Positions 38,272 through 39,037 of a stretch of 64,000 nt of DNA are shown here, in pieces. Position numbers and translations under genes: made by a program. The DNA comes from Bacteroidia bacterium (lineage in GTDB: Bacteria > Bacteroidota > Bacteroidia > Flavobacteriales > Schleiferiaceae). The stretch covers positions 310,001 through 374,000 of the forward strand of contig JAUHWL010000001.1 in assembly GCA_030424545.1 (NCBI GenBank). Direction: 5' to 3'. The first letter of the stretch is position 1. The number at the start of each line of letters is the position of its first letter. The notes under the pieces are model-generated. The model ran no database searches. It saw only the letters and a program-made list of their open reading frames with translations, and had not been told where the DNA came from.

Positions 38272-38465
38272 CTAAATCCCTTAAAGGGAAATTTTTGCTT
38301 TTGGGGAAACTTTATCGTTCACTCCCAACCCCCTAAAGGGGGCTTTCATTCGAGTAGAAAAAAATCCATTGTTGTTCAACCCTAAATTCCCTAAAGGGGA
38401 CTTTCTTTAAAAGTGAAAAAAATCCAGTCGCTAAAAAGCTCCCTTTAGGGGGTTGGGGGTTTTAG
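38272..38465. repeat. REP-like palindromic repeats, left block (four units)
   Basis: Four related units have a core of CCCTAAAGGGG and a flank ending GACTTTC or GCTTTC. They lie at 38272-38296, 38324-38347, 38380-38405 and, in reverse orientation, 38435-38465. The third and fourth units face each other and can form a long stem-loop. The fourth overlaps the 3' end of the DUF559 gene. Confidence 0.85.
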
Positions 38466-38843
38466 CTCTTCAACTCGCACAGCAATTTCTTTTTCCAGCT
38501 CCTTAATCACATTTTGCAAATCAGAATAGATTTCCTCATTTCTAAACCTAATTACTTTCACACCAAAAGTTTCAATTTCTGCCGTGCGGCCTTCGTCCCA
38601 TAAGGCTTGCTCAAACTCATTGTGTACATCGCCATCCACTTCAATTATTAGGCGTAATGCATGACAATAAAAATCCGCAACAAAAAAGGAAATGGGGTGT
38701 TGCCTTCTAAATTTAAAACCAAGAAGATTTTTCTGGATGACAGTCCAAAGGCGCTTTTCAGCGTCAGTTTCTTTGCTTCGTAAAATTCTTGCCAGAGCAA
38801 AAACTTCGGGCTTTGCCCCGTAAAACATGTCGGTGGCGGTCAT
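38445..38843 (-). CDS. DUF559 endonuclease-domain protein
   Basis: The 132-residue protein has the DUF559 pattern: ARILRSKETDAEKRLWTVIQ, GFKFRRQHPISFFVADFYC, LIIEVDGDVH and VKVIRFRNEEI. This is a PD-(D/E)XK fold related to Vsr; D92-like, EVDG and FRRQ residues are in place, so nuclease activity is plausible. It is a lone gene inside REP-like repeats. Its last residues (KPPTP) and TAA come from a repeat unit. The start is the ATG at 38843. Confidence 0.9.
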   Translation of the reverse strand: MTATDMFYGAKPEVFALARILRSKETDAEKRLWTVIQKNLLGFKFRRQHPISFFVADFYCHALRLIIEVDGDVHNEFEQALWDEGRTAEIETFGVKVIRFRNEEIYSDLQNVIKELEKEIAVRVEELKPPTP

Positions 38844-38870
38844 TGTTGGGTTTTTGTTTCGTAAATATAA

Positions 38871-38939
38871 CCCCTAAATCCCGTAAAGGGGACTTTTCTT
38901 AAGGTGTTAAAAAACTCCCTTTAGGGGATTTAGGGGTCA
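38871..38939. repeat. REP-like palindromic repeats, right block (two units)
   Basis: CCCCTAAATCCCGTAAAGGG at 38871-38890 continues as GACTTTTC to 38898. The mirrored unit lies at 38911-38939 (CTCCCTTTAGGGGATTTAGG). The two arms fold into a hairpin of about 25 pairs with a 12-base loop, upstream of the DUF559 gene and before the T9SS gene. Confidence 0.85.
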
Positions 38940-39037
38940 TTTAACTTCCGCTAACTAACTTCTAGACGTACTTGCCGAATTATGCCTCCAATATGAAACC
39001 AGAACACTTTACATTCCTAACCCATTATAATTTAATC

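Follow-up and report, generated by a model that had tools for sequence, protein, structure and literature searches.

A gene for a DUF559 nuclease seated between C-rich palindromic repeats, with repeat pairs of the same plan dispersed without the gene, forms an arrangement like that of REP sequences and their RAYT transposases, and this arrangement is well supported across the loci and genomes analyzed here. The window, the 64,000-nucleotide stretch of Bacteroidia DNA that was analyzed, holds one such locus. We read it, with a probability of roughly 55%, as an instance of a composite mobile element (repeat–nuclease–repeat) whose nuclease would cut and move the repeats. Comparison with other bacteria suggests that DUF559 may be the missing enzyme behind a widespread bacterial repeat family. 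The in-frame insertions and the reach beyond Bacteroidota described below were outside the view of the sequence-only reading of the window.

Repeat units around the DUF559 gene of the window

The whole window was searched with the TCCCCTAAAGGGGACTTT pattern, allowing up to three mismatches. Six matches were found, all around the DUF559 gene (Table 1), against a chance level of 0.02; the maximum in dinucleotide shuffles was one, and 0 of 100 shuffles gave six. The sequence-only reading had described six CCCTAAAGGG units flanking a lone DUF559 gene, four on one side and two on the other. This was borne out, with the four units lying 3' and the two lying 5' of the gene, as was their arrangement in mirrored pairs (38387/38435 and 38879/38911). 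The second pair forms a single long hairpin on folding (z, -6.15; equaled in 0 of 200 shuffles), while the first folds more weakly (z, -2.73; equaled in 2 of 200 shuffles). The TAA stop of the nuclease gene lies inside the unit at 38435, which extends over the 3' end of that gene. With a score of 105 bits against a curated cut-off of 20.6, the encoded protein is a member of Pfam DUF559 (PF04480).

Table 1. Repeat units and nuclease gene of the DUF559 locus, in window coordinates
Feature	Position	Strand	Remark
Repeat unit 1 (TCCCTTAAAGGGAAATTT)	38277..38294	+	3 mismatches
Repeat unit 2	38329..38346	+	2 mismatches
Repeat unit 3, left half of mirrored pair with unit 4	38387..38404	+	1 mismatch
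Repeat unit 4, right half of mirrored pair with unit 3	38435..38452	-	Pattern match
DUF559 nuclease gene, 132 aa, motif FRRQH...ADF...IEVDG..H	38445..38843	-	Pfam DUF559
Repeat unit 5, left half of mirrored pair, 5' side of gene	38879..38896	+	1 mismatch
Repeat unit 6, right half of mirrored pair with unit 5	38911..38928	-	3 mismatches
Whole 5'-side mirrored pair, REPIN-like, one hairpin	38867..38940	.	Arms 84% complementary; folding

Across the whole 3.375-Mb genome, the same search returned eight matches (control pattern, two): the six window units, one solo copy (contig C10, position 114184), and one weak match. The CCCTAAAGGG repeat is real and nonrandom, and in the source genome it is almost confined to the window's DUF559 gene.

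The source genome contains five DUF559 genes, all five flanked by repeats, which are of at least four types. One gene (L001) has flanking repeats of the form CCCCTCTCC...GGAGAGGGG and lies between a cysteine desulfurase-like and a SufE-like gene (assigned by inspection). Another (L002), flanked by a 102-nt direct repeat, lies in frame within metH, giving a single 1,092-aa frame (Pfam) that is the sole MetH found in this genome. A 227-nt direct repeat (89%), which also contains CCTCTCC...GGAGAGG, flanks a third gene (L003), and CCCCGCTCAAGAGGGGAA is the flanking repeat of L005. CCTCTCC...GGAGAGG occurs at eight sites in the source genome, three beside DUF559 (two on contig C11 and one on C18) and five away from it. 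At one of the source-genome DUF559 genes, a mannosidase-like gene that follows it (assigned by inspection; L010:4611-6731) has a frame starting within both the nuclease gene and the repeat; the start region of the mannosidase-like gene may thus come from the repeat.

DUF559 genes and C-rich palindromes in other genomes

DUF559 loci were collected from species genomes, using the best 80 of 572, and their flanks were compared over 350 nt on each side, with a score of at least 34 taken as matching. Both flanks were available for 78 of 85 loci (L002, L016, L029, L030, L065, L089, and L090 were dropped). Matching flanks were found at 38 of the 78 DUF559 loci but at only 14 of 414 control open reading frames from the same loci, with one DUF559 locus (L004) measured on the wrong strand. 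The matches consist either of palindromic units in inverted orientation or of direct repeats up to about 300 nt long.

The set was enlarged to 172 distinct DUF559 domains, 166 of them with both flanks. Across these 166 loci, C-rich palindromes reached 1.356 per kb in DUF559 flanks, compared with 0.057 per kb elsewhere in the loci, a 24-fold difference. Among standalone genes (n = 87), the palindromes lay on both sides of 35 and on one side of 25; among in-frame copies (n = 79), they lay on both sides of 6 and on one side of 28. The detector found nothing in the flanks of the other 27 standalone and 45 in-frame copies. Two DUF559 genes stand in tandem, with starts about 560 nt apart (L104 and L195).

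At the level of whole genomes, the pattern CCTCTCCN{1,8}GGAGAGG was found at 1,154 sites in 149 genomes of the same class, against 12 sites for the pattern read backwards. Strong DUF559 matches were present in 31 of the 35 genomes with at least five CCTCTCC...GGAGAGG sites and in 41 of the 114 others (P = 2.2e-8, an optimistic value, as the genomes and loci are akin and kinship inflates the test). By choice, this strong count treats 11 genomes whose DUF559 matches are weak as having none; with weak matches counted as well, the figures were 31/35 and 52/114 (P = 3.3e-6, inflated in the same way). Every genus with at least 10 sites holds a DUF559 genome (15 of 15), compared with 37 of 85 other genera. 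Four of the 149 genomes (G045, G083, G117, and G120) have at least five sites and no DUF559 match. The sequence-only reading would have failed had the repeats been equally common in genomes lacking DUF559, and for the CCTCTCC...GGAGAGG type they are not. The window's own type, ACCCCN{1,5}CCCTNAAGGG, occurs in 25 of the 149 genomes, mostly in one or two copies each, and little could be tested with so rare a repeat.

RAYT-family genes served as a comparison. Y1_Tnp is present in 114 of the 149 genomes, with three copies in the source genome. Twenty Y1 and 20 DUF559 loci were hand-picked from printed lists, 13 and 17 of them, respectively, from six shared genomes. C-rich palindromes were detected in the 450-nt flanks of 19 of the 20 DUF559 genes and of none of the 20 Y1_Tnp genes, the gap left beside the gene being 120 nt for Y1 and 40 nt for DUF559. 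A looser detector found two C-rich palindromes in 67.6 kb of Y1 loci. Flank scores of at least 34 did not separate the two groups (DUF559, 11/20; Y1_Tnp, 9/20; P = 0.40), since Y1 genes are flanked by repeats of a different kind; the two systems (Y1, L166 to L185) therefore appear to run side by side. The proposed analogy with REP/RAYT stands as an arrangement, on the strength of the genome-level association and this comparison; it does not extend to the spread of the window's own unit, which has a single solo copy.

Architecture of solo repeat pairs and nuclease cassettes

In two repeat-rich genomes and in the source genome, a CCTCACCCC-like head often precedes the palindrome of solo repeats. 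Among 20 stretches inspected, exact inverted solo pairs ending in GGGGTGAGG were found in L218, L223, and L224, and judged by their sequence, these inverted pairs match a REPIN in plan; such gene-free pairs occur in genomes that also carry DUF559. The ends of DUF559 cassettes are like those of the solo pairs, with the gene occupying the spacer. In the cassette of L165, for example, the order is GCCTCACC-...-CCTCTCCAAAGGAGAGG ... CCTCTCCTTTGGAGAGG-...-GGTGAGGC.

In many cassettes, the two ends resemble each other more than they resemble those of other cassettes: the upstream unit had its best match in its own downstream unit in 24 of 42 cassettes, where about one was expected, and the mean score between upstream and downstream units was 49.1, compared with 20.7 after permutation. 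Furthermore, similarity between nucleases was correlated with similarity between their repeats (Mantel r = 0.283; 4,259 pairs of 93 cassettes; reached in 0 of 500 permutations), a test that kinship inflates. These data fit nucleases that have their own cognate repeats, and shared ancestry can contribute to the pattern.

Among the 60 best cassette pairs listed, none was a near-identical cassette at two unrelated sites, and no target-site duplication was noticed by eye. A known RNA family was rejected as the identity of the repeats: all eight Rfam matches scored under the gathering score, and seven of the eight were microRNA hairpins, probably matched through hairpin shape. A defense system was likewise set aside, PADLOC matches being weak.

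In-frame DUF559 copies inside conserved enzymes

In different genomes, the same loops of conserved enzymes hold cassettes or, in a single case, only a repeat pair, and the reading frame is kept. DUF559 lay in open frames of at least 300 aa in 54 of 150 among the matches listed; the 40 large-frame loci studied were chosen for their long frames. Pfam identified as hosts LeuRS (in two loops), IleRS, MetH (in two places), AcsA, RecG, RecJ, and MutS, together with CinA, Ham1, HisF, CoA-transferase, SpoIIE-type phosphatases, and restriction enzymes; additional insertions in LeuRS, MetH, AcsA, RecG, and RecJ were recognized from sequence alone. Strain genomes are included, with Pfam-supported copies in MetH of Flavobacterium cucumis (L067) and LeuRS of Ilyomonas limi (L077). 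A 1,890-aa frame with SpvB, Rhs, and TcdB-type domains opens with a DUF559 domain (L126:5576-11245).

The interrupted LeuRS was the sole LeuRS found in all 22 genome entries that have one (21 genomes, G126 and G151 being the same genome), and each entry has one full LeuRS editing domain, located within the interrupted gene. In one entry (G057), the LeuRS frame is split, with DUF559 in a frame of 235 aa and the editing domain in one of 700 aa. A second LeuRS-type match, short and weak, was seen in 20 of the 22 entries and is, we infer, ValRS. Similarly, one MetH was found in each of the seven genomes with an interrupted MetH. In a Sphingobacteriales bin (L065), a single LeuRS carries two DUF559 domains, one at each recurrent loop.

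The insert in the LeuRS of L165 is about 140 aa long, with DUF559 at residues 348-452, and replaces residues 236-238 of Thermus LeuRS (1h3n). The loop that holds a cassette in L165 is occupied in L157 by a nuclease-free repeat pair. Palindromic repeats inserted in frame in coding genes were found in L157, L098, and L103. Translation can continue in frame across CCTCTCC...GGAGAGG units, as in L165, whereas the CCCTAAAGGG unit brings the stop of the window gene.

The insertion sites were placed on a quick tree of 168 short DUF559 domains, on which the following minimum changes were counted with no shuffled-label comparison: at least six at LeuRS site 1 (12 rows), at least seven at LeuRS site 2 (10 rows), and three each in the MetH linker (4 rows), the MetH activation domain (4 rows), and AcsA (3 rows). 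Given at least six and seven changes at the two LeuRS loops, entry into the same loop looks recurrent. Vertical inheritance as the sole cause of the shared sites was rejected, in view of the multiple minimum changes at LeuRS, MetH, and AcsA. A nuclease domain carried by the cell's only LeuRS, recurrent in the same two loops, would represent mobile DNA that persists in essential proteins without splicing.

Fusions to HisF gave three changes for 13 rows on the same tree; these look inherited and settled, and flank scores were below 34 in 9 of the 13. DUF559 is fused to the N terminus of HisF in L013, L014, L015, L017, L019, L020, L021, L026, L040, L042, L044, L048, and L056, from Pedobacter, Mucilaginibacter, and a Bacteroidetes bin (Pfam for L013; frame and similarity for the others).

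Predicted fold and catalytic residues

The catalytic residues E, D, E, and H correspond to E29, D57, E68, and H74 of the window protein. All four are preserved in 79 of 81 in-frame and in all 87 standalone DUF559 domains, and dN/dS was about 0.03 to 0.25 in 8 of 12 pairs (dS was saturated in the other four). On this basis, selection seems to maintain the in-frame copies as nucleases.

The window protein was modeled with AlphaFold (pLDDT, 88.4), and the solved fold nearest to the model was a gonococcal endonuclease-like protein (3hrl; E = 2e-6). The catalytic domain of the homing endonuclease I-Bth0305I (3r3p) followed at ranks 2 and 3 (E = 4.9e-4; TM-score on the target, 0.79), so that the modeled protein is predicted to share the catalytic fold of the EDxHD family. 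The match to Vsr (1vsr) was far weaker (E = 0.56).

Inteins are the usual seat of homing enzymes. No intein family was found at E values up to 1 in eight of the nine in-frame proteins scanned, and inteins were rejected as a general explanation of in-frame DUF559, with one exception in Microcystis (see below). The L165 insert, mostly DUF559 and replacing three residues, is too small to accommodate an intein splicing domain. The exception is a DNA methylase of Microcystis wesenbergii (L078:4867-7767), in which DUF559 lies in an intein-like part with the ends C...VHN/C and an Intein_splicing match under the curated cut-off (E = 3.4e-4). This case speaks for a homing role. The intein-like segment of L078 also holds C-rich repeats.

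Proposed mechanism and alternative explanations

In the composite element that we propose, a DUF559 gene (PD-(D/E)XK, Vsr/I-Bth0305I-like) would lie between C-rich palindromic ends, each consisting of CCTCACCCC or ACCCC, a short spacer, and the C-rich palindrome, mirrored at the far end. The nuclease would recognize the palindrome, as hairpin or duplex, in its own ends and in dispersed copies, and would cut or nick it; repair or recombination could then carry a copy of the cassette, or of the repeat pair, into a new location. In this model, nonautonomous derivatives would account for the solo pairs. Insertions would survive between genes, or within genes if the repeat is readable in frame and the loop is tolerant.

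The strongest alternative is that another enzyme spreads the repeats and that DUF559 is a passenger homing nuclease, which cuts them and copies itself in by recombination. A homing endonuclease, I-Bth0305I, as the nearest functional fold, a cassette consisting of a gene inside a repeat pair, the four repeat-rich genomes without DUF559, and the placement of a Thermosynechococcus DUF559 gene in the EDxHD homing family in a passage of PMC9403480 are all consistent with this. The intein-like setting in Microcystis also agrees with it; since that case favors homing both for a passenger and for the composite element, it leaves the odds between them unchanged. However, no other enzyme emerged, and Y1_Tnp, the sole one examined, adjoins the C-rich repeats at none of 20 loci. 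Moreover, among the 77 genomes lacking a strong DUF559 match, only 4 had at least five repeats, compared with 31 of the 72 genomes with such a match, a distribution poorly explained by a mere passenger. We consider a passenger role unlikely, at around half the weight of an even chance.

DUF559 might instead act as a guardian, nicking mismatches or the hairpins or triplexes of the repeats in the manner of Vsr and being selected beside them with no role in spreading. A trans-acting enzyme of this kind needs no seat between matching ends or inside LeuRS, MetH, or MutS, and the end pairs are cassette specific; such a role is improbable, even though there is a distant relation to Vsr (1vsr), a YcjD profile reaches Vsr at 1e-5 in a passage of PMC1189080, VsrA of Caulobacter, a DUF559 protein, has a proposed mismatch-repair role in a passage of PMC12907096, and BoxC-type motifs are tied to instability in parts of PMC4666352.

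That the repeats are ordinary REPs of RAYT (Y1/HUH) transposases, with DUF559 a bystander, is very improbable: Y1_Tnp is common and has its own flanking repeats at 9 of 20 loci, but a RAYT origin of the C-rich repeats was rejected on the lack of C-rich palindromes in the 450-nt flanks of all 20 Y1 loci, against 19 of 20 for DUF559. Least credible of all is chance or artifact, with C-rich hairpins as terminators or assembly noise and in-frame cases as misassemblies; many loci do come from metagenome bins, but the backward control pattern gave 12 sites against 1,154, strain genomes carry in-frame copies, and these copies are under purifying selection.

Comparison with known repeat systems

Like REP/REPIN sequences with RAYT (TnpA-REP), the composite element proposed here has short palindromes with an adjacent tag, inverted pairs, cognate repeats flanking an enzyme gene, and nonautonomous pairs elsewhere; inverted pairs dispersed without the enzyme gene were found in L218, L223, L224, and L157. 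The differences lie in the enzyme, a PD-(D/E)XK nuclease fold in place of a repeat-flanked Y1/HUH transposase, in the tag (CCTCACCCC/ACCCC, not GTAG), and in the many DUF559 repeats that sit in frame in proteins along with the nuclease. CGTC-tagged REPs (Di Nocera, 2013) are described in a passage of PMC3733652 as a class without a dedicated transposase; their tag and palindrome differ from those of the DUF559 repeats.

Rickettsia palindromic elements, compared by description, are similar in being in-frame palindromes in unrelated metabolic genes (in a passage of PMC10969869). None is described there with a nuclease, whereas the DUF559 nuclease is itself within the host protein. I-Bth0305I, which comes from a group I intron, is the nearest solved functional fold to the DUF559 model; in contrast to it, most DUF559 cases show no intein, and their ends are palindromic repeats. 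To the Vsr mismatch endonuclease there is a distant likeness of fold, with the weak structural match given above. In Legionella, a recurring segment that carries a transposase together with DUF559 is named as a recombination hotspot (in a passage of PMC12308824).

C-rich repeats at DUF559 loci beyond Bacteroidota and the E. coli gene ycjD

By inspection, repeats like CCCTCACCC or CCTCTCCC-GGGAGAGGG were found at DUF559 loci of Desulfuromonadales, Chloroflexi, Omnitrophota, WOR-3, Patescibacteria, and Geomonas. Plasmid DUF559 loci of Azospirillum lipoferum, Pseudanabaena, Picosynechococcus PCC 7002, Sinorhizobium meliloti, and Deinococcus proteolyticus have C-rich repeat forms of their own. Also by inspection, a Sphingomonas locus has a C-rich repeat on one side only, and the repeat is absent from a Parageobacillus locus.

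In Escherichia coli, the gene flanked by sapF and fabI, ycjD, belongs to DUF559 (NF007294). It was found in 3,365 of 5,426 E. coli genomes; in all seven inspected strains without it, an efflux and regulator locus adjoins fabI, in agreement with a passage on eefRABCD and ycjD in PMC12817139. The stop codon of K-12 ycjD lies within a C-rich stretch, CACCCTCTCCCTGA, and about 180 nt 3' of the gene is GGGGAGAGGGTTAGGGTGAGGGG (position 3312 of L236). This repeat has three C/G-rich blocks and a TTA loop (GAGAGGG-TTA-GGGTGAGGG) and, compared by description, fits the BoxC/PIT/triplex motif (TM), with which the DUF559 repeats also share inverted pairs.

BoxC/PIT repeats have been known since the 1990s. 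According to passages of PMC4666352 (Holder, 2015), they are reported in more than 260 genomes but have neither an enzyme nor an agreed origin; these passages also report that BoxC-type motifs accompany instability; BoxC is included in a repeat survey as well (in a passage of PMC2267715). The words "DUF" and "nuclease" are absent from the main text of PMC4666352, which thus names no link between BoxC and DUF559, and no link of DUF559 to these repeats was found in the titles, abstract openings, and passages of the open-license literature searched. We infer that BoxC/PIT/TM and the DUF559-flanking repeats are one family. More tentatively, and at somewhat less than even odds, DUF559 proteins may be the mobilizing enzymes of a bacteria-wide superfamily of C-rich palindromes (BoxC/PIT/triplex and kin), with the nuclease persisting unspliced and active in essential enzymes. 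The kin meant are Bacteroidota, cyanobacterial, and proteobacterial repeats, and a lone PD-(D/E)XK nuclease between palindromic ends could then, with the same slightly-below-even confidence, define a class of element. If true, a dedicated nuclease would explain the BoxC/PIT repeats, and E. coli K-12 carries a candidate in ycjD. A long inverted repeat, CACCTCATTCTGACAA...TTGTCAGAATGAGGTG, lies right at the start of K-12 ycjD (L236:2738-2781), and its CACCTCA tag resembles repeat heads seen elsewhere.
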